A program made the position numbers and the translations under genes. From IMG/VR virus record IMGVR_UViG_3300017963_001791, positions 1-24,598 of that record: 24,598 bases of DNA. One strand, given 5' to 3'. Of the stretch, positions 1,631 through 13,667 are shown in pieces (the stretch's first letter is position 1; each line of letters starts with the position of its first letter). Under the pieces are notes generated by a model that saw nothing but the letters and a program-made list of their open reading frames with translations, was not told where the DNA came from and searched no databases. This DNA is from a virus.

Positions 1631-2618
1631 ATTGACTCTTGTAAGTTTGGACAATAACTATATCTATAATTATATTCAAACTTGGAAGGGTCTACATAAA
1701 ATAAAAAATCAAGGATTAAAGGCTATAAGTATTTATAGGGAATTTGAAAGACGGGGATTCGAATGCTCCTGTGTAACCCAACAAAATATTGACTCAATAA
1801 AAGATGGTCTGGTTTTGATAAAAGGCGGATTCTATTTTAAACAGCAGCAGGACTCGTTGATCAAACTTGGAAAGCTCGGAAGCACGCATCCTGTGCGGCT
1901 CTTAACGATTGATGAGGATGATTTGAGAATTGATTTCAGGAAATTATTTATGTACCATCCGGAAACAATAAAGAATTTTGGAATTCTTACAAATCAATTT
2001 TATCCGATGTACTATGTGAATAGGGATTACCCGGAAGCTGAATTTAGATATGTGTTGCAAAGTAGCTATGCTAATCTAGAATGGATTAATCTCGTACAAG
2101 ATCCTGGAGCTTCCTTCGATTTCTGCTATGTTGGTGATAGAAAGTCCAGAAGATTTAGAGTTCTAAAAGATCTTGGAATTACGGATATGGAAAACATAGT
2201 ATTTGTAGGGGCAAAATGGAACGAATATCCTGTTTATGCTTATAGGGAATTCACCTACCCAATTGACCTTTTGAATATGTTTAGATTGGGAGCCTTTCAA
2301 ATTCATATAACTGATCATAGATGGCATCATTTTCACTACATGACTCCAAGGGTGGCCCAGTCAATTTATGCAAGCCGCCTTGTAATGATCCATGAAAGTC
2401 AAATCGCTACAACGCCCGATCTACCCGTAGATGATCGATTCGTTTGGAAAACTTTAAAAGAACTAAAAGAAAAAGTAAAGTCAATATCTAGGTATCATAC
2501 CTATCACAAACTTTTAGATTTCCAAAGGGAGCATTACCTTGGTGAATATTTTAAGGAATCAGTTTCAAGTGTAGTCAACAGAATAATTGAGGAGGAATTA
2601 AAATGCGATATATCTTAG
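1620..2618 (+). CDS. GT-B-like glycosyltransferase candidate (CgeB/YkvP-like)
   Basis: About 332 aa. No strict catalytic motif is visible, but the second half has a GT-B-like pattern: a YVGDRKSRRFRVLKDLG strand-helix about residue 168 on, a FVGAKW strand, then PIDLLNMFRLGAFQIHIT and a TPRVAQSIYASRLVMIHE stretch that resembles the donor-site helix (R..E..A.G..V) of CgeB/YkvP-type glycosyltransferases. ATG codons at 1599, 1617 and 1620 are in frame; GGAGG at 1609-1613 has the best spacing to 1620, so that start is chosen. It overlaps the stop of the helicase gene by 11 bases and is followed immediately by the flavoprotein-dUTPase gene. In a phage nucleotide-modification context it could glycosylate a modified base, but that is inference; it may be another GT-B-fold enzyme. 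Confidence 0.5.
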   Translation: MKSKLTLVSLDNNYIYNYIQTWKGLHKIKNQGLKAISIYREFERRGFECSCVTQQNIDSIKDGLVLIKGGFYFKQQQDSLIKLGKLGSTHPVRLLTIDEDDLRIDFRKLFMYHPETIKNFGILTNQFYPMYYVNRDYPEAEFRYVLQSSYANLEWINLVQDPGASFDFCYVGDRKSRRFRVLKDLGITDMENIVFVGAKWNEYPVYAYREFTYPIDLLNMFRLGAFQIHITDHRWHHFHYMTPRVAQSIYASRLVMIHESQIATTPDLPVDDRFVWKTLKELKEKVKSISRYHTYHKLLDFQREHYLGEYFKESVSSVVNRIIEEELKCDIS

Positions 2619-3817
2619 GAGGCGGTCTTAATGGACTAATCATGGCTTATTATAATCCTGATTTTAAAGTCATTGATATCAAACCACCAAAAGCAAAAGA
2701 CCATTGGACTCCAGAAACGCGGGACGTTATGGTTCAACTCCATGATACTAAGGAGAACAGAATCCTGTTGGATGATCTCAAGATCGCTTATAGTCCGAAG
2801 GTCCGCGACATCAAATATTTCTTCAATGGTAAAATATATGATTCGTGTCCGGAGCCATTGGTAACAGAATATGTTCTAAAGAAACTCGGAAACAATAAAC
2901 ACATGCTGACCGAAGATAGAACTTTGACCCAAGCTTCTTCAAGATTTAAAGTTCTGAATTGCAATCTTGAAACCGTGTACCGGGTATTGCGGAAAAGTGT
3001 AGAAGATAGAATTATTGAGTGTGACAATATTAATGGAATAAAGTCCAGTCACATTGTAGTCGATAGGGGAACTGCATATTCCTATGAGCTTTTAGTTAGT
3101 ACACTTCCGGCTCCGGTGTTTTGGGAAAAGTGGGCAGGGGTAAAACCTGACAAACTTGAATTAGAATTTTTGTCCTCAACTTTTCTTGTAGAAAAAGAAC
3201 CTCCGGGAGGAGTATCAAAAGATGATGATTTTGGACTCATGTATTTTGTAGATGATAGGCCTTATCATCGCGTTTCACATATGTCACCAGATAAATATAT
3301 TTACGAGTTTACTGGAATACACGAAACTTTTCCAAATTCCTCCATTCAGCGTTTAGCGCAATTCAAAACCTGCCCTCATAATGTACCGCCACCGAATGTT
3401 CTGTTTGCCGGGCGGGTTGCGACTTGGAGGCATTGGTGGAAAATTGAGCACACGGTTAAGATGGCAAGATCCCGATTTGCACTTGAGCAGATGTGGAATA
3501 GGCAGGCCTTCTTTGAAACTCACTTCTTAGATTTCGATCGGCCAACATCGGAACTGATCGGCGATACCATATACTTCATAACCTGTGTTCAAGAAGAACT
3601 ACACGAGATGCTTCGTGAGTTGAACTGGAAAAAGTGGAAGGATCAAAAGATAAAAGTTGATAGGGAAAGAGTTCTTGAAGAGTACATCGATGCCTTTAAA
3701 TTTCTATTGTCAATAGGATCCTTATGGGGATTCTCAATAGAAGAAATAAGTGATATGTTTCATAAAAAATCAAAGAAAGTAGAGGAGGAATTTTTCGATG
3801 GCGAGTTATTGGGATAG
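2603..3817 (+). CDS. FAD/NAD(P)-binding oxidoreductase fused to all-alpha dUTPase-like domain
   Basis: A 404-aa two-domain protein. Residues 1-300 look like a flavin amine-oxidase/UDP-galactopyranose-mutase-like Rossmann protein: GGGLNGL dinucleotide-binding loop at 6-12, VSTLP at 165-169, and LFAGRVATWRHWWKIEHTVK at 267-286, which matches the C-terminal FAD-binding GR..EWRY...D motif of that group. Residues about 310-398 look like a dimeric all-alpha dUTPase/MazG-type pyrophosphatase: metal-binding EELHE at 331-335 and EEYID at 359-363, with WKKWKDQ between. Such domains hydrolyse dUTP to dUMP. ATG at 2603 has GGAGGAA just upstream and overlaps the previous gene. Its neighbours (methyltransferase, ThyX-like, TS-like, kinase-like) point to thymidylate or modified-pyrimidine metabolism. 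The substrate of the flavoprotein half is unknown. The single reading frame is continuous, so this is a true fusion unless the assembly is wrong. Confidence 0.65.
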   Translation: MRYILGGGLNGLIMAYYNPDFKVIDIKPPKAKDHWTPETRDVMVQLHDTKENRILLDDLKIAYSPKVRDIKYFFNGKIYDSCPEPLVTEYVLKKLGNNKHMLTEDRTLTQASSRFKVLNCNLETVYRVLRKSVEDRIIECDNINGIKSSHIVVDRGTAYSYELLVSTLPAPVFWEKWAGVKPDKLELEFLSSTFLVEKEPPGGVSKDDDFGLMYFVDDRPYHRVSHMSPDKYIYEFTGIHETFPNSSIQRLAQFKTCPHNVPPPNVLFAGRVATWRHWWKIEHTVKMARSRFALEQMWNRQAFFETHFLDFDRPTSELIGDTIYFITCVQEELHEMLRELNWKKWKDQKIKVDRERVLEEYIDAFKFLLSIGSLWGFSIEEISDMFHKKSKKVEEEFFDGELLG

Positions 3818-4298
3818 AAGAAAAACTTTGGATTATTACAAAGTGGCTAAGGAGTTCGTTATGGAGTTCTGCGAAGACTTCGGAGATCTTCTGGATGTAG
3901 GTGGCGGACAATGCGAGTATATTTATGAACTACCCTTCGTAAGTAAACTCGTTCTTGATCCAAATCCTAAAGTCAACCATTTCGATCAAGCGGAAACCAT
4001 TCATGAAGAATTTATGGACTGGGATCCTACAACAATCTTCGACTGCGTTATGTGCCTTCAGGTGCTCGAGCATGTGCCCGATCCATCGGCGTTTGCGGCG
4101 AAGTTACTTTCAATTGGAAAGATCATTGTTGTTTCAGTGCCATATGAATGGCCAGATGGATTATGCTCAGAGCATATTCAAGATCCGGTTTCTGAGGAAG
4201 ACATGGAAACCTGGTTCGGTAAAATTCCAATCGCCTCAATAATTGTTCGCGGAAGAAAGCGACACCGGCTTGTCCAGGTGTATGAAGGGAATATGTAA
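3798..4298 (+). CDS. Class I SAM-dependent methyltransferase
   Basis: 166-aa compact Rossmann methyltransferase. Motif I LLDVGGGQCEY is at residues 31-41, motif II-like LVLDPNP at 51-57, and the FDCVMCLQVLEHVPDP block at 81-96 is typical of motif IV/post-IV in the Methyltransf_11/25 group. There is no target-recognition domain and no DPPY or PC motif, so this is not a classic DNA base methyltransferase; a small-molecule or nucleotide substrate is more likely. A good GGAGGAA site precedes ATG 3798, and the gene overlaps the preceding stop by 20 bases; its own stop TAA overlaps the next ATG. Its place inside the deoxypyrimidine gene string suggests it modifies a nucleotide or its intermediate, which is inference. 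Confidence 0.7.
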   Translation: MASYWDRRKTLDYYKVAKEFVMEFCEDFGDLLDVGGGQCEYIYELPFVSKLVLDPNPKVNHFDQAETIHEEFMDWDPTTIFDCVMCLQVLEHVPDPSAFAAKLLSIGKIIVVSVPYEWPDGLCSEHIQDPVSEEDMETWFGKIPIASIIVRGRKRHRLVQVYEGNM

Positions 4299-5242
4299 TG
4301 TTTAGAAACCGCTTTGGAGAAACACCGAGAACAAAAATAATAAATCTCGAAAAAGCTATGAAGGTTAATGTACGATGTCCCGATCGACATGAAATTCTTC
4401 CAAGGCTAAGGAGATTTATTGGGGCCACGTGGGCAGATACAATCGCGGAAGCTGCGACTATGGGCGAAGAAGAAATGCTTTACCGTGGATCCGCGTTGTG
4501 GCAGGGTCTTGAACTTTTTGACTTCTTTATAGAAGTTGAAGGAATCACAAGAATATTGACCCATCAAATAGTCCGCACCAGGATCGGAGCTACGTATAGT
4601 CAGCAGTGTTCCGGCGACGCTGATTGGAGGCATCACGATCTCCTTATGCCGAGAAAAATTTTCCAGATGGGACTTGGTGAAGAATATATTTTAAACTCAT
4701 TGACCAACAAATTCTTATACGCCAAGGCCATCGACACAAAGAAAATTTCTATTCAGGAAGCTAGGCTGATCCTTCCGCAGAACCTGTCTACCTTCATAAT
4801 GATGAAAATGAATCTTGCCGCCCTAGCTCCATGGGTGAGAAAAAGATCCTGCTCCATGACACAGGATATGTCAATGGTTCGCTTGGCAGTTGAAATTAAA
4901 AATCAGGTAATCGCTTCATGGCCGGAACTGGAGCCGCTTTTAGCGGATGAGTGTTCTTCTGGAAAATGTTTCTGGACTCAGTCAATGCTGAGAAAAGACT
5001 ACAATGCCCATACCACGTTATACGCTCCTGATACTCAACACATACATGCTCTTATGGAAAATTCTGAGTACGGAGAAGAAATCATTTCCCATATACGAGA
5101 GCGTGTTCAGGTATATAATGATTTCCATAGCGTAATGGTCAACGGAGTATGTAATATGGAATCCGGAAAATATGAAACCCATGACCGCTTTTTCATCGGC
5201 ATGGTAGAAGTGGGGGAGAAAGAATGGAACGCGAAGTCCTAA
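4298..5242 (+). CDS. thyX: Divergent flavin-dependent thymidylate synthase (ThyX family)
   Basis: 314 aa, longer than usual ThyX (about 220-250 aa). ThyX makes dTMP from dUMP using FAD, NADPH and methylene-tetrahydrofolate. The core FFIEVEGITRILTHQIVRTR (residues 76-95) matches the conserved ThyX helix ending in RHR. Here the signature RHRX7S reads RTRIGATYSQQC (93-104): the central His is Thr and there appears to be one extra residue before the SQQ. The C-terminal 100 residues (CSSGKCFWTQS onward) are an extension not typical of the family. ATG 4298 overlaps the methyltransferase stop (ATGTAATG), implying translational coupling; ATG 4358 is an alternative start. The changed signature could mean altered chemistry, for example another 5-substitution of dUMP. 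Confidence 0.7.
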   Translation: MFRNRFGETPRTKIINLEKAMKVNVRCPDRHEILPRLRRFIGATWADTIAEAATMGEEEMLYRGSALWQGLELFDFFIEVEGITRILTHQIVRTRIGATYSQQCSGDADWRHHDLLMPRKIFQMGLGEEYILNSLTNKFLYAKAIDTKKISIQEARLILPQNLSTFIMMKMNLAALAPWVRKRSCSMTQDMSMVRLAVEIKNQVIASWPELEPLLADECSSGKCFWTQSMLRKDYNAHTTLYAPDTQHIHALMENSEYGEEIISHIRERVQVYNDFHSVMVNGVCNMESGKYETHDRFFIGMVEVGEKEWNAKS

Positions 5243-5748
5243 TAGACCTTAAACTAAAGGCTTTATTCCACTCTTGCCGAAGTCAAGATATCAGGATAAC
5301 CAGAGGGAAAAAATATTCGGAGTTAAAAACTTCAGCAATATTTCCACAAAGTGGAGCATGGGCTGAAAATGAACTTCCTGGAAACCTTGATTTCTTATTT
5401 GATGAGATTATTAAGGAGTGGGGAAAAGAAACTCTTGATCTAATATTGTCCTATAAGGAAAAAATAATAGAGGATCCCTTTCGTAGAGATCTTGTAATAC
5501 TATGTCCTGATGTACGGAATCCAGGCGTACATGCGTCGTGCATATCAATGATCCATTTATTACAAACGCCCTACGGAGTATGGAATGTAAAAGTATATTG
5601 GAGATCGTGCAATTTTGAAACTTATATAAGACGCGATCTAGCCTTGGTAATGAGAATTGTAGAGTTCATACTTTTATTAGTCCAGGATGAGGAAAGAAAG
5701 ATCCACTTACACTGCGAGTGGGCCTCACTACATAAGGAGATCAAGTAA
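5224..5748 (+). CDS. Short, divergent thymidylate synthase/deoxypyrimidine hydroxymethylase (ThyA) superfamily protein
   Basis: 174 aa against about 264 for ThyA. Low overall similarity, but the order of landmarks fits the family: DPFRR at 84-88 (ThyA DPxxRR phosphate-binding arginines), then an ILCPDVRNPGVHASC stretch ending in Cys106 in the place of the catalytic ALAPCH Cys, then VKVYWRSCN at 122-130 matching the ThyA YQRSCD motif, and a long helix. The usual LPFN after RSCD is absent, and the C-terminal dUMP-binding HxY is only weakly echoed by IHLHCEW. Family members transfer a one-carbon unit to C5 of dUMP or dCMP, giving dTMP or 5-hydroxymethyl nucleotides. The start ATG 5224 follows a GGGGGAG site and overlaps the ThyX-like gene by 19 bases; the stop overlaps the next start. 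Whether it is active cannot be told. Confidence 0.55.
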   Translation: MEREVLIDLKLKALFHSCRSQDIRITRGKKYSELKTSAIFPQSGAWAENELPGNLDFLFDEIIKEWGKETLDLILSYKEKIIEDPFRRDLVILCPDVRNPGVHASCISMIHLLQTPYGVWNVKVYWRSCNFETYIRRDLALVMRIVEFILLLVQDEERKIHLHCEWASLHKEIK

Positions 5749-6674
5749 TGATTATTTTAGAAGGTCCTAATGGAGCGGGAAAAACAACCGAAGCTTACAA
5801 ACTTTCAAAAATTCTCAATTGGGGATATCATTATAATAGGGAAAGGGAAACTAGGGAGAGACTATTTGCTAGATCTGAAGACCAAGTTTCTACAAGGAAA
5901 AGAATCGTTGATCGTAATTGGATCTCCGAAGCGGTGTATAGAGTTATTGAGCATAGGAGTGTAAGATTCTCAATAGAGGAACTATACTATCTAAGTCTCC
6001 TTAGTCTACGTGGTACTACTTGGATCATAGTTCCAGATTTTGAAACTATATCCAATAGGGTAGATTACCCTATAAAGGGAATCGGGAAATTAGATCATAA
6101 ACTAGTCCACAAAATATACTCTGAGGGCCTCAAGAGTAAAGTTGAGCTAATAGACGGCCGAACTGTGCGTATTTTAGACTTCGTTCCTTTCAAAATGACT
6201 ACAACCGGAATTCCTAATGAAGAATCTCGTAGGGTAATTTCTATGCTAGCATTGAATCAATCTAAGCTATGGGATATCTATGAATGTATGGGCGGATCCG
6301 GAATCGGCGCAATATCTCCAGAAATTTTGTTTCTTACAGATAACGACAGATTAAATGGGGAAGGTTCACTTTCGAACTTACTTAGGGATATCTATCGCGT
6401 AGGATTAGGTCCGGATCAAGTTCATATTTTAAACTATAGTGGTAGAGGAGTACATGGATTACATGAATGTATAAAACAATTGAATCCTAGATTAGTAGTT
6501 CTTTGTTCTGAATTAAATATTAATAACTATTTGAATTACTATAAATACACAGGGAAGGCCGAGATTTGTGATCATGTAATTCTTGGATCAACAAAAGATC
6601 CGGAGATTAAAGTTAAGGAGATTCAGGATGCTGTTAAACACCGTTGCATACCTACCCCAATTTCCAAAAGATGA
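5748..6674 (+). CDS. Thymidylate-kinase-like P-loop protein with extra C-terminal domain
   Basis: 308 aa. Residues 1-150 look like a dTMP-kinase-type P-loop fold: GPNGAGKTT at 6-14, VDRNWISEAVYR at 54-65 matching the DRxxxS..AYQ motif, and a WIIVPDFETISNR strand-helix. It should phosphorylate a (deoxy)nucleoside monophosphate, or possibly a base in DNA as 5-hydroxymethyluridine DNA kinases do. Residues about 155-300 form a second domain with alternating strands (EILFLTDND, QVHILNYSG, RLVVLCSEL) and a conserved-looking GEGSLSNLLRD helix; this pattern loosely recalls uracil-DNA-glycosylase-type folds but is not diagnostic. AAGGAG lies 7-12 bases before ATG 5748. The gene overlaps the polymerase start by 47 bases. 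Confidence 0.55.
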   Translation: MIILEGPNGAGKTTEAYKLSKILNWGYHYNRERETRERLFARSEDQVSTRKRIVDRNWISEAVYRVIEHRSVRFSIEELYYLSLLSLRGTTWIIVPDFETISNRVDYPIKGIGKLDHKLVHKIYSEGLKSKVELIDGRTVRILDFVPFKMTTTGIPNEESRRVISMLALNQSKLWDIYECMGGSGIGAISPEILFLTDNDRLNGEGSLSNLLRDIYRVGLGPDQVHILNYSGRGVHGLHECIKQLNPRLVVLCSELNINNYLNYYKYTGKAEICDHVILGSTKDPEIKVKEIQDAVKHRCIPTPISKR

Positions 6675-8580
6675 ACCGCTGGTTGTAGATGTTGAAACTA
6701 CATCTTTCGATAAAGAAGAGAAAGCGTTCAAGCCCTTTAACGGGCACAGAATCGCAGGTGTAGCGATTGGAACTGTTGATGGAAAACAACAATGGTACCT
6801 TCCACTGCGTCATCATTCTGGAGTCGAGAAAAATGAAAATATAAATCTCGAAGTTGGATTACGCTGGTTTAAGGATGTGATGGAATCCGGACGAGATATT
6901 ATAAATCATAACATAAAGTTCGACGGAAGATTTTGGCACCAAGATGGGATCACTGTAAAAGGTGAACTTAAAGATACGATGGTGTTAGCCCGGTTAGTAC
7001 ATAATAGACTGCCAGCTTATAATCTTGACTACTTGTCAAAAGCTTTCTGCGGAATAGATTCCGGCAAAGATAACACGGTTAAAGCCTACTGCAAATCTAT
7101 AAAGTCAAAAGACTACGGTGACGCACCGGCTTCAATGATGGGCAAGTATGCAGAACGAGATGTTAAAATAACTGCAGATTTGTATAACGCTCTCAGCCGG
7201 AAACTACCCGATATCTCTAAGGAGATATGGGAGATCGAGTATAAGTTGACCAAACACCTCCTCGAAAGTGAAATCATCGGAGTCCCCTTAGATATTCAAA
7301 GGCTTAAAACTTCTTACAGAGATGCACTTAGGGATCTTCTTATGGTCCATGAACAAATAAACGAGATAGCTGGAGAAGAAACTGATCCCATGAGTAATAC
7401 GTATTTGTCAAAATTGCTTACTGGAAAATTCGGGATCAAGCCTAAGGCGTTCACCAAAACTGGAAAGGCTCAATGGAACAAGATGGCCTTTGAAACGCTG
7501 GACCATCCGATTGGTAAACCACTTGCACGATATAAAGATATTGATCATTTCATTTCTGCATACTGTAAAGGTTGGATTACGAGGGTTGGAGAGGATGGTA
7601 GATTGCACGCAGATTTTTGGCAGTCAGGAACAAAGACAAGTAGGCTTTCCTGTCATGATCCTAATTTGCAGAACGTCCCTCTGGAAGCCGAAATCCACGT
7701 ACGAGTTGATGAGGAAACTTATGGACTTGTAATGGCAGATTATTCCCAAATGGAATACAGGATTTTTGGACACTATACAAAAGACGAAGCTATACTTGGC
7801 GAGTACAATAAAAATCCTTATATGGATTTCCACGGTCATCTAGCTGGTATGCTGGGAGTTGATAGGCAGTTTGCAAAACAATTAAATTTCTCGTTCATTT
7901 ATGGAATGGGAAAGAAAAAGTTGATTGCTAACTTGGCCGGACTAATAGCGTTGAAGGCCGGCGATGATAAAGAGATGGCAGAAAGAATGCGGACTTATTT
8001 AACTGGTGCTGGAACTGCAACTGCTCAGAGGGCCAAGCAGCTGGATTTGTCCGAAACTACACAGCTTGCGGAAAAAGTTTATGCAGATTATCACAGGAAA
8101 TTTCCATCGATTAGACAATTTCAAACTAAAGTCAACGACGCGGTAAAGCGGAGAGGTTGGGTTAAAAACTGGTTTGGCCGACGTTATGTATTTGAACCGG
8201 GGTCTCCAGTTCACCAAGCTGTGAATTATTTAATTCAGGGTTCCGCTGCGGATTGTTTTAAAACCCGACTCGTTTCATTATTCAGGGAAGTAATTCCAAA
8301 TTACCCTGGTGTATCGTTGTTAACTCAAGTCCATGACTCAGTTATTTTTATGGTCCCTAAGGAGATGATGGTAGACTTCGCAATCGACATGCAGAAGTGT
8401 TTAGAGGATACTCCGATGTTTCGAGTTCCCATGTTGGCGGATATAAAAGTTGCTAACGAGTACTGGTCGCAGGGATTTGAAATTGAAGCAAGGCCTGAGT
8501 TAGTTGGAGAAAAACAATTCAGGACTGCAATACAAGAAGGCATAGAGAAATCAAAATCTCAAACGGTTCGCGGATGGTAA
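6628..8580 (+). CDS. polA: Family A DNA polymerase with 3'-5' exonuclease domain
   Basis: 650-aa phage replicative polymerase of the Pol I (family A) type. Counting from ATG 6628: exonuclease Exo I VDVETT with D21/E23, Exo II NHNIKFDG with D99, and Exo III YAERDVKIT at 174-182; polymerase motif A DYSQMEYRI 371-379 (metal-binding D371), motif B from R413 to G426 with K417, F421 and Y425 as in Pol I R...K...F...YG, and motif C QVHDS 567-571 (metal-binding D570). The 5'-nuclease domain is absent. An upstream in-frame ATG exists at 6583, but AAGGAG at 6615-6620 fits ATG 6628. The stop TAA lies inside the first copy of a 39-bp direct repeat. As the last gene of the nucleotide cassette it would be the enzyme that incorporates any modified dNTP. 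Confidence 0.93.
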   Translation: MLLNTVAYLPQFPKDEPLVVDVETTSFDKEEKAFKPFNGHRIAGVAIGTVDGKQQWYLPLRHHSGVEKNENINLEVGLRWFKDVMESGRDIINHNIKFDGRFWHQDGITVKGELKDTMVLARLVHNRLPAYNLDYLSKAFCGIDSGKDNTVKAYCKSIKSKDYGDAPASMMGKYAERDVKITADLYNALSRKLPDISKEIWEIEYKLTKHLLESEIIGVPLDIQRLKTSYRDALRDLLMVHEQINEIAGEETDPMSNTYLSKLLTGKFGIKPKAFTKTGKAQWNKMAFETLDHPIGKPLARYKDIDHFISAYCKGWITRVGEDGRLHADFWQSGTKTSRLSCHDPNLQNVPLEAEIHVRVDEETYGLVMADYSQMEYRIFGHYTKDEAILGEYNKNPYMDFHGHLAGMLGVDRQFAKQLNFSFIYGMGKKKLIANLAGLIALKAGDDKEMAERMRTYLTGAGTATAQRAKQLDLSETTQLAEKVYADYHRKFPSIRQFQTKVNDAVKRRGWVKNWFGRRYVFEPGSPVHQAVNYLIQGSAADCFKTRLVSLFREVIPNYPGVSLLTQVHDSVIFMVPKEMMVDFAIDMQKCLEDTPMFRVPMLADIKVANEYWSQGFEIEARPELVGEKQFRTAIQEGIEKSKSQTVRGW

Positions 8581-8615
8581 TCGGCACCGGGTAAAATTGT
8601 AATGTAGATTACATT
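8577..8615. repeat. 39-bp direct repeat, copy 1
   Basis: Exact direct repeat with the element at 8624-8662, period 47 bases. Each copy holds GTAATCGGCACCGGG followed by the dyad TGTAATGTAGATTACA. This copy begins one base before the stop codon TAA of the DNA polymerase gene. Confidence 0.95.
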
Positions 8616-8713
8616 ACAGCGCAGTAATCGGCACCGGGTAAAATTGTAATGTAGATTACATTTTCCTAAATTGCAACTTGGATTACATTTTACTTTTTGC
8701 AACATAGATTACA
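8598..8713. promoter_or_regulatory. Cluster of four TGTAAT-type dyad sites (operator- or iteron-like)
   Basis: Four 16-bp sites: TGTAATGTAGATTACA at 8598-8613 and 8645-8660, TGCAACTTGGATTACA at 8672-8687 and TGCAACATAGATTACA at 8698-8713. The half-sites TGTAAT and ATTACA are perfect inverted repeats with 4 bases between them in the first two; the last two keep the right half and a diverged left half. Start-to-start spacing is 47, 27 and 26 bases. Near-identical sites recur at 10211-10309. This is the pattern of a dimeric DNA-binding protein; whether it is a repressor, activator or origin-binding protein cannot be told. The binding protein is not identifiable in the window. Confidence 0.7.
8624..8662. 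repeat. 39-bp direct repeat, copy 2
   Basis: Second exact copy of the 8577-8615 element, separated from it by CACAGCGCA-type spacer sequence of 8 bases. The spacer junction also forms ATTAC (8613-8617) facing GTAAT (8624-8628). Confidence 0.95.
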
Positions 8714-8906: not shown

Positions 8907-8937
8907 TGCGCTATAAGTAGCTAATAACATTACGAAA
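8907..8937. repeat. Imperfect 31-bp direct repeat, copy 1
   Basis: Starts TGCGCTATAAGTAGCTAA and ends CATTACGAAA; differs from the copy at 9008-9038 by about three bases. A shorter related stretch, AAGCTATAAGCTAATATAG, lies at 8831-8849. Confidence 0.85.
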
Positions 8938-9007: not shown

Positions 9008-9038
9008 TGCGCTCTAAGTAGCTAATTTCATTACGAAA
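9008..9038. repeat. Imperfect 31-bp direct repeat, copy 2
   Basis: Starts TGCGCTCTAAGTAGCTAA and ends CATTACGAAA, 101 bases downstream of copy 1. Lies just upstream of the 9069-9096 promoter. Confidence 0.85.
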
Positions 9039-9068: not shown

Positions 9069-9096
9069 TTGCAACTACTAGCGGCCATGCTATAAT
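9069..9096 (+). promoter_or_regulatory. Sigma70-type promoter for the small-protein module
   Basis: -35-like TTGCAA at 9069-9074 and a perfect -10 TATAAT at 9091-9096, spacing 16 bases. Transcription would start near 9103 and read the 54-aa gene at 9155, then the hammerhead and the downstream genes. The sequence right after the -10 (TACAATTACA) carries ATTACA half-sites like those in the dyad clusters, so the same regulator might act here. Confidence 0.7.
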
Positions 9097-9154: not shown

Positions 9155-9319
9155 ATGAAAAACACGATGAAAAAAGCAACCGCGAAACTCGATTGGGATA
9201 ACCAAAAAGCAAAACGCAACTTATACAAGGCTGGCTGCGGCCGCTGGACCCAGACACTTCACCAGCGGTTTGGGGTTGCAGAAACCAAGGTCCGGATCGA
9301 CGAAACAATTACATGGTAG
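9155..9319 (+). CDS. Small basic protein, 54 aa, function unknown
   Basis: ATG 9155 is preceded at good distance by AAAAGGAGAA (9141-9150), and the frame runs to TAG at 9317-9319. The protein begins MKNTMKKATAKLDWDNQKAK and ends VRIDETITW. It is Lys/Arg-rich with Trp and one Cys (AGCGRW) and has no recognisable domain or membrane segment. It is the first gene after the 9069-9096 promoter, and its stop codon lies 3 bases before a hammerhead ribozyme, so its mRNA would get a new 3' end by self-cleavage shortly after the stop. A role in DNA or RNA binding is possible from charge alone; nothing more can be said. Confidence 0.65.
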   Translation: MKNTMKKATAKLDWDNQKAKRNLYKAGCGRWTQTLHQRFGVAETKVRIDETITW

Positions 9320-9322
9320 TAT

Positions 9323-9380
9323 AGCTTAGCGAAACGCCCTCCGGGGCGTCCGGGAAAAATCCCGCTGATGAGCATAAGCT
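9323..9380 (+). ncRNA. Type II hammerhead self-cleaving ribozyme
   Basis: All core parts of the hammerhead are present in type II (stem II open) order. Stem II 5' strand AGCTTAGC 9323-9330; GAAA 9331-9334; stem III ACGCCC (9334-9339) / GGGCGT (9344-9349) closed by tetraloop TCCG; the cleavage triplet GTC ends at C9350; stem I CGGGA (9351-9355) / TCCCG (9360-9364) closed by AAAA; core CTGATGA 9365-9371; stem II 3' strand GCATAAGCT 9372-9380, which pairs with the 5' strand over 8 bp with one bulged A. Predicted cleavage is between 9350 and 9351. It sits 3 bases after the stop of the 54-aa gene and 33 bases before the next start, so it would split the polycistronic message between the two genes. 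Confidence 0.88.
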
Positions 9381-9413
9381 TAACAGAATATACTTATAGA
9401 AGGAGATTTTAAA

Positions 9414-9854
9414 ATGGCGAAAAAAGAAAAAGCGGCAAAAGTGGAAAACACGGAAAACACGGAAAACTTGGACGAGAAAATCAAGGCGGAAAAAGCAGCG
9501 GAAAAAGCTGAAATTTCAGCGAGAAGAAAAATCACGAAAACTCAGCAAGAAAACCTGGATGCAGCACTAAATAAAATGCAGGAGGCCTCGGACATCCTGG
9601 AGGCGGCAAGCTTGATGATTAATCTCGATGAAGTTGCGAATGATCATCCTTCCTACAGAATCTGGAAAAAACTTGGAAAAACTGCGAACTCCCTGGACAG
9701 CGTTTTCAACAAATTCCATAGCAGCAAAAAAGGAAAACTTTCCGCGGCGGCAAAAACTCGCAAACTGGAGAAACTGCGGGCCCAGGAAAAAGCATTGCTT
9801 GAGGAACTCGAAGCTGAGGGAATTTCCCTTGACGATCTAAACACCGAAATTTAG
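9414..9854 (+). CDS. Lys/Glu/Ala-rich coiled-coil protein, function unknown
   Basis: 146 aa, preceded by AGAAGGAGAT (9399-9408). Very rich in K, E and A. The N-terminal 50 residues are low-complexity (including a repeated ENT triplet), then a helical middle (NLDAALNKMQEASDILEAAS), and a C-terminal coiled coil KLEKLRAQEKALLEELEAEG (residues about 118-137) followed by ISLDDL. The C-terminal helix resembles those of the 9923 and 10821 gene products. It lies directly downstream of the hammerhead, so its message would begin with the 5'-OH product of cleavage. No enzyme motif is visible. It may be a phage accessory protein that binds nucleic acid or oligomerises; this is inference. Confidence 0.75.
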   Translation: MAKKEKAAKVENTENTENLDEKIKAEKAAEKAEISARRKITKTQQENLDAALNKMQEASDILEAASLMINLDEVANDHPSYRIWKKLGKTANSLDSVFNKFHSSKKGKLSAAAKTRKLEKLRAQEKALLEELEAEGISLDDLNTEI

Positions 9855-9909
9855 AATTCTTAATCCGGGAGCCTCCTTAGCAGGGGGCTTCCACTTAAGA
9901 ATTTTAAAT
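9849..9909 (+). other. Long imperfect intergenic stem-loop
   Basis: A 15-bp outer stem (9849-9863 with 9895-9909, one G-T wobble), a small internal loop (TCC against AC), and a 10-bp inner stem (9867-9876 with 9883-9892, with two G-T pairs) closed by a 6-base loop. The structure spans the stop codon of the 146-aa gene and ends before the AGGAG of the next gene. There is no U-run after it, so it is not a typical rho-independent terminator. An mRNA processing or stabilising element is more likely. Confidence 0.65.
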
Positions 9910-9922
9910 ACAGGAGAGCATG

Positions 9923-10210
9923 ATGTCAATAGAAATAGAAAAAGAAAAATTGCGGAAAGCCCGTGCTGTAGCACACTTCGAGTTCATGGAAGCATACGCA
10001 CGAGTTGAAGAACTCGAGAGAGATCTAGAAAATCTCAAAATAGCAATCCCGAAAGCGCAGGCGGCTATGCTGCGGTTTAAGCGCAAGCGGAACGAACTAG
10101 ACGCCGAATGGGAAGCTAAGGATTACGATAATTTGGAGAAGCTTGCCAAAATTGAAAAGGTGAAAAGGATTAAAGCCCAGTTAGCGAAGCTTGAAGCTGA
10201 ATTGGAATAG
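9923..10210 (+). CDS. Small coiled-coil protein, function unknown
   Basis: 95 aa, almost entirely predicted helix with heptad-like spacing: ARVEELERDLENLKIAIPKA in the first half and KRIKAQLAKLEAELE at the C-terminus. Two ATG codons are adjacent (9920, 9923); the AGGAG at 9912-9916 has better spacing to the second. The protein is highly charged, without Cys and without membrane segments. Its C-terminal KL..L.ELE helix resembles those of the 9414 and 10821 products. The stop TAG lies inside the first copy of the 66-bp tandem repeat. It is part of the small-gene module behind the 9069-9096 promoter. Function cannot be assigned. Confidence 0.7.
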   Translation: MSIEIEKEKLRKARAVAHFEFMEAYARVEELERDLENLKIAIPKAQAAMLRFKRKRNELDAEWEAKDYDNLEKLAKIEKVKRIKAQLAKLEAELE

Positions 10211-10341
10211 TGTAATCTAAATTACAATGTAATCTACATTACAATTTTGTCAGGTGCAGATTACTGCACTAAATAGTGTAATCTAAATTACAATGTAATC
10301 TACATTACAATTTTGTCAGGTGCAGATTACTGCACTAAATA
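10206..10341. repeat. Two-copy tandem repeat, 66-bp unit
   Basis: Two exact tandem copies (10206-10271 and 10272-10337, identity running on to 10341). Each holds TGTAATCTAAATTACA, TGTAATCTACATTACA, TTTTGTCAGG and the dyad GTGCAGATTACTGCAC. The first copy starts at the stop codon of the 9923 gene, as the 8577 repeat starts at the polymerase stop. Confidence 0.95.
10211..10309. promoter_or_regulatory. Second cluster of TGTAAT-type dyad sites
   Basis: Four sites: 10211-10226, 10228-10243, 10277-10292 and 10294-10309. All keep perfect TGTAAT/ATTACA halves with 4 bases between. Within each pair starts are 17 bases apart. Each repeat unit also has a promoter-like TTGTCA and, 17 bases on, TAAATA, with the dyad GTGCAGATTACTGCAC (10254-10269, 10320-10335) exactly filling the spacer. 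That arrangement resembles an operator inside a promoter; the -10 match is weak. Confidence 0.65.
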
Positions 10342-10360
10342 TTTATAGAAAGGAAATGAA

Positions 10361-12125: not shown

Positions 12126-12531
12126 AGGCGAATTTAAACTTCAAGCTGCCATACGCCGTCTGATAGCGCACATGGGCGGCAAAGATGAGAAGATGCATGG
12201 CAATATGTATCAATCCGGAATTCCGGATCTTCTTGTTGGGTTTAATGAACAATTTCTATTCATCGAATTGAAGTGGAAAGAAATTTACACAATCGGTGAA
12301 GCCTTTATGGAATTGAGACCGACACAAAGAAAGTTCTTCTTATTATGGAAACAATGGCCCGCCTACATATTAGTAGGAAGGCCACCATTCCTTGACGAGG
12401 AGACAGAAGTGTGTCTTATTAAAGCCTCTGAAATAAATAGTTCAGAGTTTGATACCCGAGTTTCTTGGATGACCTTGAAAGAGGCCACCGAAATTTTATT
12501 TTCCAGTACTCGGGATTCCGAGAGCCGCTAA
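12118..12531 (+). CDS. VRR-NUC-type PD-(D/E)xK nuclease
   Basis: 137 aa. The active-site pattern is clear: GIPDLLVG (34-41) gives the catalytic Asp, FIELK (48-52) gives the (D/E)xK part, and the LRPTQRKFF helix follows as in VRR-NUC domains, with the strand AYILVG after it. Such phage nucleases are thought to act on branched or flapped DNA. ATG 12118 lies 9 bases after GGAGG (12104-12108); the TTG at 12112 is too close. It is translationally coupled to the ligase, which fits a shared role in repair or recombination. It is the last + strand gene, and its 3' end overlaps the - strand gene by 36 bases. Confidence 0.85.
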   Translation: MAKGEFKLQAAIRRLIAHMGGKDEKMHGNMYQSGIPDLLVGFNEQFLFIELKWKEIYTIGEAFMELRPTQRKFFLLWKQWPAYILVGRPPFLDEETEVCLIKASEINSSEFDTRVSWMTLKEATEILFSSTRDSESR

Positions 12532-12837: not shown

Positions 12838-13447
12838 CGCTTGTTTCCTCCTTTTCTTTTTCCTGCTCCTCATTAACAGGTTCCTCGGCCACCGGGTTTA
12901 CGTAGGAATTTATTCCACGAGCTATACCCAAGGCCATGCTGTCCTGATTCTCTTCATTCAACAGCCATTTGAGACCGGCCGAGTTTGACATGAACTCGCA
13001 CTCGACTATAACAGCCGGTGATACAGTGTCATGTAGAATCATCAATCTATTTGACCTAGGTTCTGGAGGGTTATATTTAATCCCTCGGGATTTTAACTCT
13101 TCATTTCCTCCGCCAATGTACATGTCAAGAAACTCGGAAAGTTCCTGCCCTTCATCGGAACAGTATAGAACTTCATATCCACGTACCTTTGGATTTTTGA
13201 CTGCGTTACAGTGGATAGAAACTATACACTCAGGTCTAAGAGCCTTCTCGATTTTAACTCTTGTCCTTAAAGGAATATCGACGTCAGACGTCCGAACCAT
13301 GCGTACTTCAGCGTCCATATTGATTAGGAAATCTCTGACTTTGAGAGCTATGGAAAGATTCAAATCTTTCTCAAGTACTCCCTTGCGAACTGCTCCAGGT
13401 TTTCTTCCACCATGTCCCGGATCAATTAAAATTCTTTTTGGTTCCAT
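12818..13447 (-). CDS. N-acetylmuramoyl-L-alanine amidase endolysin (Amidase_3)
   Basis: 209 aa, zinc amidase that cuts the bond between MurNAc and L-Ala in peptidoglycan during lysis. Zinc ligands fit the family: H12 in IDPGHGG (8-14), E26 and H79 in VSIHCNA; the catalytic Glu is E149 in VIVECEFMSN. Amidase_3 fills residues 5-182; the C-terminal 25 residues are acidic low-complexity (EEQEKEKEE) with no wall-binding repeats. No signal peptide, so export would need a holin. CTAAGGAGAT (13461-13452) is the ribosome binding site. It follows the small holin-like gene, as is usual for lysis cassettes. Confidence 0.9.
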   Translation of the reverse strand: MEPKRILIDPGHGGRKPGAVRKGVLEKDLNLSIALKVRDFLINMDAEVRMVRTSDVDIPLRTRVKIEKALRPECIVSIHCNAVKNPKVRGYEVLYCSDEGQELSEFLDMYIGGGNEELKSRGIKYNPPEPRSNRLMILHDTVSPAVIVECEFMSNSAGLKWLLNEENQDSMALGIARGINSYVNPVAEEPVNEEQEKEKEETSDGGNSD

Positions 13448-13466
13448 ACTTATCTCCTTAGTAAAT

Positions 13467-13667
13467 TTATTTTCCTACAGATGCTTTCCCTTCCATAAAG
13501 GAAATAGCATTCTCGCATCTTTTAGTTCTTTTTAATAGCTCATCAATGCAGTCCGAATGATTTTCAAATCTATCAGTGATCCTCCCCCAAGTCATCCAAG
13601 CAAGAGCTGTCACTAAGGAGAGCATAATCCCGCTTGATATCAACCCGCCTACTATTGCATCCCACAT
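13467..13667 (-). CDS. Small single-span membrane protein, holin candidate
   Basis: 66 aa. Residues 4-27 (AIVGGLISSGIMLSLVTALA then WMTW) form one clear membrane span; the C-terminal 35 residues are charged and helical (DELLKRTKRCENAISFMEG). Ribosome binding site TTAGGAG precedes ATG 13667. Placed between the tail hub gene and the amidase, where siphoviruses often carry the holin. Holins have no diagnostic motif, so this is inferred from size, topology and place. Confidence 0.6.
   Translation of the reverse strand: MWDAIVGGLISSGIMLSLVTALAWMTWGRITDRFENHSDCIDELLKRTKRCENAISFMEGKASVGK

Follow-up and report, generated by a model that had tools for sequence, protein, structure and literature searches.

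The window analysed here, a stretch of DNA of 24,598 nucleotides (nt) from an uncultured phage, carries between two same-strand open reading frames (ORFs) a candidate type II hammerhead ribozyme whose parts are given in Table 1. The TAG stop codon of the upstream, 54-amino-acid (aa) ORF (9317–9319) lies 3 bases before the ribozyme motif, and the ATG of the downstream, 146-aa ORF (9414) lies 33 bases after it. This is the spacing given in a preliminary description of the DNA, and the neighbours that it had named, a 54-aa gene and coiled-coil genes, are borne out. Among ORFs of at least 40 aa on either strand, none spans the motif and one touches its edge. Given the replication genes on the same strand and a sigma-70-like promoter sequence at 9069–9096, it is plausible that the ribozyme belongs to an early operon. 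The promoter-like site scores 10 of 12 matches, and such sites are just mildly more numerous than in shuffled sequence, which makes it weak evidence.

Table 1. Coordinates of the ribozyme, its parts and the neighbouring features in the window.
Feature	Position	Strand	Basis or remark
54-aa ORF upstream of the ribozyme, no known family	9155–9319	+	AAGGAG precedes its ATG
Promoter-like TTGCAA-16-TATAAT, TG ahead of −10	9069–9096	+	In the 575-base gap upstream of the operon
Candidate type II hammerhead ribozyme, 58 bases	9323–9380	+	Complete by sequence
Stem II, 5′ strand, AGCUUAGC	9323–9330	+	Partner is 9372–9380; sequence and fold
Core G12 A13 A14 (9331–9333), plus A15.1	9331–9334	+	Sequence
Stem III hairpin, 9334–9339 with 9344–9349, 6 pairs including A15.1–U16.1, loop UCCG	9334–9349	+	
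C17, predicted cut on its 3′ side (9350/9351)	9350	+	Predicted from the hammerhead consensus position
Stem I hairpin, 9351–9355 with 9360–9364, 5 pairs, loop AAAA	9351–9364	+	Fold
Core CUGAUGA (C3–A9)	9365–9371	+	Sequence
Stem II, 3′ strand, GCAUAAGCU	9372–9380	+	8 pairs, A9374 bulged; sequence and fold
Competing hairpin CUGAUGAGCAUAAGCUUAACAG, possible in the downstream product	9365–9387	+	Folding
AAGGAG, ribosome-binding site of the 146-aa ORF	9400–9405	+	Sequence
146-aa coiled-coil-like ORF downstream of the ribozyme	9414–9854	+	Weak match to L002 13089–13442, same gene order
Long intercistronic hairpin after the 146-aa gene	9855–9903	+	Fold, z −4.6; L002 counterpart 13440–13489, z −5.7

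All nucleotides of the invariant hammerhead core (C3 U4 G5 A6 N7 G8 A9, G12 A13 A14, A15.1–U16.1 and H17) are present in the motif, and the pairs adjacent to the core are intact (10.1–11.1, G9372–C9330; 1.1–2.1, C9351–G9364; 15.1–16.1, A9334–U9349). Three stems surround this core, with stems I and III closed by loops and stem II open, which is the type II order, and the cleavage triplet is GUC; the motif conforms to all of the published acceptance criteria for a hammerhead core (PMC3088659). The MFE fold of 9318–9384 is exactly the predicted three-stem structure (−25.2 kcal/mol, z −2.98). Both the base-by-base reading and this fold bear out the initial assignment of a type II hammerhead with stems of 8 bp with one bulge, 6 bp and 5 bp, and the cut then predicted at 9350/9351 agrees with the putative C17 at 9350. 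When six extra 3′ bases are included in the fold, a rival hairpin at 9365–9387 is favoured by 1.7 kcal/mol in an energy model that ignores core contacts. The stem II duplex has a calculated energy of −8.6 kcal/mol, compared with a median of −4.9 for the copies among the matches listed in the survey described below. A pseudoknot between loop I and the 3′ tail is absent from the window ribozyme, in which the loop AAAA and the tail CAUAAGCUUAACAG offer no 3-base match, so the speed of the ribozyme at cellular magnesium is uncertain.

At the gathering threshold, Rfam gave no match in the window. The sole Rfam family reported was RF02276 (Hammerhead_II), at 27.7 bits, below its gathering score of 37 bits, which is a curation cut-off and no biological property; the E-values at this score are 8.9e-4 (301 bases, all 4,227 families) and 1.7e-5 (the record). 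Because RF02276 also gave weak matches in 10 of 14 control genomes, at E-values up to 10 and none above the cut-off, a weak match by itself tells little. A covariance model built from 14 other phage ribozymes with the window excluded (R1) detects the window ribozyme at 38.1 bits with an E-value of 2.3e-8, the E-values of this model being rough. The covariance-model check named in the preliminary description thus yields a significant match to RF02276, albeit under the gathering score, and a match to R1. The low Rfam score is attributable to the sub-form found in the window, since the Rfam consensus carries a 2-pair stem II and an AGCC tail. Run on 15 loci, mostly picked as pseudoknot-less or long-stem-II copies, RF02276 gave one match that reached the cut-off. 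Most type II hammerheads without the loop I–tail pseudoknot seem to fall below the 37-bit cut-off.

A descriptor consisting of GAAA, a stem III of at least 5 pairs, UH, a stem I of at least 4 pairs and CUGAUGA was scored against dinucleotide shuffles of the whole window on both strands. It matched three times in 1,500 shuffled windows and not at all once a stem II of at least 2 pairs was added, and in its one match in the real window, stems III and I have 6 and 5 pairs and stem II has 2 ahead of the bulge. Pattern and descriptor scans found no second hammerhead in the window.

Searches of IMG/VR with the 146-aa protein, the DNA polymerase and a 135-aa protein all returned a single relative, IMGVR_UViG_3300018080_000067 (L002), whose polymerase is 56–57% identical to that of the window; against named phages, the window polymerase reaches at most 29% identity. 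In both phages the polymerase is followed by a coiled-coil-like gene (MAKK...), a 94–96-aa gene, a gene with a WCDYQI motif, a ligase and an endonuclease, after which comes an endolysin on the opposite strand (the L002 genes were named by likeness of sequence and order). The WCDYQI-motif genes are 45% identical and the MAKK proteins share a weak sequence match (28 aa, E 4e-4); homology of the downstream genes is weak by sequence and is suggested mostly by gene order. At the junction ahead of the MAKK gene, L002 reads TAA-AGT-GAAA-CCCGG-UUCG-CCGGG-U-A^CGGG...CCCG-CUGAUGA-UCUAGCCC, which is again a type II hammerhead. It resembles the window copy in its neighbours (by gene order), its permutation, its 6-pair stem III and its UNCG loop, and is unlike it in having a GUA triplet, a U·U mismatch at 10.1–11.1, a possible GGGCU:AGCCC pseudoknot and a short stem II. 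From the window to L002, stem III changes from CGCCC/GGGCG to CCCGG/CCGGG, GUC becomes GUA and most letters differ. That the junction position is kept and the stem letters have changed in step supports selection for structure. R1 detects the L002 junction hammerhead at an E-value of 2.1e-5, and its U·U mismatch means that this copy would fail the strictest published filter (PMC3088659). RF02276 found nothing over the L002 record, and both of its hammerheads came from reading the junction and from the descriptor scan. The second, at 12344–12398, has stems of 8, 9 and 5 pairs and lies ahead of a 73-aa ORF starting at 12423; the other 15 kb of the record contain no further hammerhead.

We surveyed IMG/VR with a pattern that carries the window's stem III and core, which matched at least 119 stretches, and with a looser one that specifies GCGAAAC, GTC and CTGATGAGC only; pooling the two sets gave 298 distinct hits among the matches listed. 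At least 5 pairs form in stem III in 259 of these 298 hits and in stem I also in 259; when partners were re-dealt, the same was reached by chance in 71 (stem III) and 25 (stem I) of the 298. In this test the first pattern had preset the letters of stem III for some hits, and stem I was free. A count of covariation is biased, because the aligned copies of equal architecture were picked for having stems, and the re-dealing test is less so. Stem II has at most 5 pairs in 249 of 255 counted copies among the matches listed, and no other record matched a pattern carrying the window's exact stem I.

The copies are placed in a characteristic way relative to genes. Among the matches listed, 201 of the 245 structured copies with enough flank are closely preceded by a stop codon and closely followed by a ribosome-binding site and start codon on the same strand; the figure is 9.4% for random places and 8 of 244 for the same places read on the opposite strand. 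The most common position for the end of the upstream stop is the first base of GCGAAAC itself (63 of 233 among the matches listed), and the median downstream start, likewise among the matches listed, lies 23 bases past CTGATGAG. The window fits this rule, with the stop 9 bases before GCGAAAC and the start 41 bases past CTGATGAG. The proteins encoded downstream of the listed copies vary widely: the 211 proteins fall into 116 clusters, and GemA of Mu-like phages and DUF2786 are among the larger clusters. On the minus strand of IMGVR_UViG_3300017605_000570 (L184), eleven type II hammerheads lie within about 4 kb (approximately 2817–6753), the eleventh of them found by R1. Ten copies separate small genes across 2.8 kb; in almost every one the stop of the upstream gene falls on the first core base, and for most a start codon follows within some 20 bases. 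This stretch is a striking candidate for the production of single-gene messengers. In another record (L105, minus strand, 5162–5219), stem II of a hammerhead has 10 pairs, and the 3′ strand of this stem extends into AAGGGAGG, the ribosome-binding site of the next gene; cleavage there could release this site for translation.

We propose that 9323–9380 is probably a functional type II hammerhead ribozyme that serves as a cistron separator; from its sequence, structure, statistics, conserved position and strand we infer cleavage, the chemistry of the ends and an effect on stability. Once RNA polymerase has passed about position 9381, the three stems would close round the core and the RNA would cut itself co-transcriptionally after C9350. 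The messenger would thereby be split at 9350/9351 into an upstream RNA that carries the 54-aa ORF and a downstream RNA that carries the 146-aa gene and those that follow. The new 3′ end would be a 2′,3′-cyclic phosphate immediately after the stem III hairpin, and the new 5′-hydroxyl end would open with the stem I hairpin, the ribosome-binding site at 9400–9405 remaining free. Folding of both predicted products places the stem III hairpin at the end of the upstream RNA and the stem I hairpin at the start of the downstream one. Because type II is the only one of the three orders with a closed hairpin at both new ends, we propose that the element uncouples the cistrons and protects their ends, against 3′ exonucleases and against enzymes that require a 5′ mono- or triphosphate. 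RNase E and RNA pyrophosphohydrolase prefer a 5′ phosphate, which is missing from 5′-hydroxyl ends. The self-cut would stand in place of a cut made by a nuclease, such as the RNase III cuts of T7 early RNA. The early genes of T7 have RNase III processing sites between cistrons, and the window element would similarly act on a polycistronic phage messenger, cutting it between cistrons so that the ends are structured, but the RNA would cut itself, with a different end chemistry and no host enzyme. The long stem II would keep the products joined, and refolding of the downstream strand into the hairpin at 9365–9387 would aid their release.

It is unlikely, in our view, that the cleaving ribozyme is a regulatory switch, gated by ribosomes ending the upstream ORF or by the hairpin at 9365–9387, and no constitutive separator. 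With the stop 3 bases ahead, a ribosome that terminates there would sit over the 5′ strand of stem II and possibly over GAAA as well, the stop in relatives most often directly abuts GCGAAAC (among the matches listed), and the rival hairpin is close in energy. However, the compactness of phage genomes alone would place an element immediately past a stop, there is no conserved ligand-binding domain, and L002 shows no sign of a conserved switch. The short loop I, the missing pseudoknot and the score below the Rfam cut-off could also be read as marks of a slow or decayed hammerhead that has no present role and is carried by gene shuffling between phages. This is quite improbable for a motif with a perfect core, unbroken stems and a position conserved in L002 with compensated stems, and other pseudoknot-less type II motifs fall below the cut-off as well (one match above it across the 15 loci). 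It is scarcely credible that two strong G+C-rich hairpins in succession merely form a terminator, an RNase site or a DNA signal with a chance likeness to a hammerhead, given the invariant core letters between the stems, the descriptor's chance rate of 3 per 1,500 windows and the relatives' strong bias to one strand. A terminator was rejected, as no U run follows either hairpin.

The window element joins a known class. Type II hammerheads in phage transcripts, including clusters, were described in 2011 by Perreault et al., as was the idea that hammerheads cut long phage RNAs down to the length of an operon or a gene (PMC3088659). Members of the class cut 3′ of H17 to give a 2′,3′-cyclic phosphate and a 5′-hydroxyl; tandem phage and prophage hammerheads cleave in vitro, and those of A. 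tumefaciens also do so in E. coli (PMC3088659). The same paper mentions a hammerhead of phage PaP3 (PMC3088659), of which the first 3 kb, when examined, added nothing. A 2017 review named the role of hammerheads in prokaryotes as an open question (PMC6155905). With the type II hammerheads of RF02276, the window copy shares all core nucleotides, the open stem II, the GUC triplet, the stem III ACGCCC/GGGCGU (more than 100 phage copies) and a position between same-strand genes. Unlike most of them, it has no pseudoknot between loop I and the 3′ tail, a feature of the majority that is not required, and it differs further in its AAAA loop I and in its stem II of 8 pairs with one bulge. The kind has been known since 2011, and 9323–9380 adds one new example. 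As far as the tools show, what is new in this copy is the long, bulged stem II without a pseudoknot; new as well are the junction conserved in two distant phages, the 11-copy stretch and the quantified stop–core–start rule, for which priority is not claimed. Taken together, a junction conserved despite most letters having changed, a positional rule measured over hundreds of phage copies and a pseudoknot-less sub-form that Rfam tends to miss make the idea of a cistron separator directly testable. More tentatively, phages may use type II hammerheads generally, in a position-coded manner, to divide one long transcript into messengers of a single gene, each bearing a hairpin at either end, and ribosomes that finish the upstream gene may gate the process; the window and the L184 stretch of eleven ribozymes would then be instances of this use.

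The junction that follows the 146-aa gene carries a long hairpin in both phages, and this gene may therefore sit between two processing elements. The hairpins of the window (9855–9903) and L002 (13440–13489) have a near-identical outer stem (AAUUCUUA...UAAGAAUU), differ in their inner stems and show no U run. They are perhaps an RNase III-type processing site.

A 31-base direct repeat, TGCGCTATAAGTAGCTAATAACATTACGAAA, occurs at 8907–8937 and 9008–9038, upstream of the operon's promoter-like site. Repeated near-palindromes, TTGTAATGTAGATTACA, are found at 8577–8713 and 10210–10347, arranged as a 39-base direct repeat after the polymerase gene and, ahead of a 71-aa ORF, as two units of about 66 bases in tandem; they probably serve a phage DNA-binding protein as operator or iteron sites. 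Elsewhere in the window, a 404-aa ORF (2603–3817) matches dUTPase_2 (PF08761) in its C-terminal part, and roughly the first 300 residues show no family match and begin like a dinucleotide-binding protein; it is a possible fusion.
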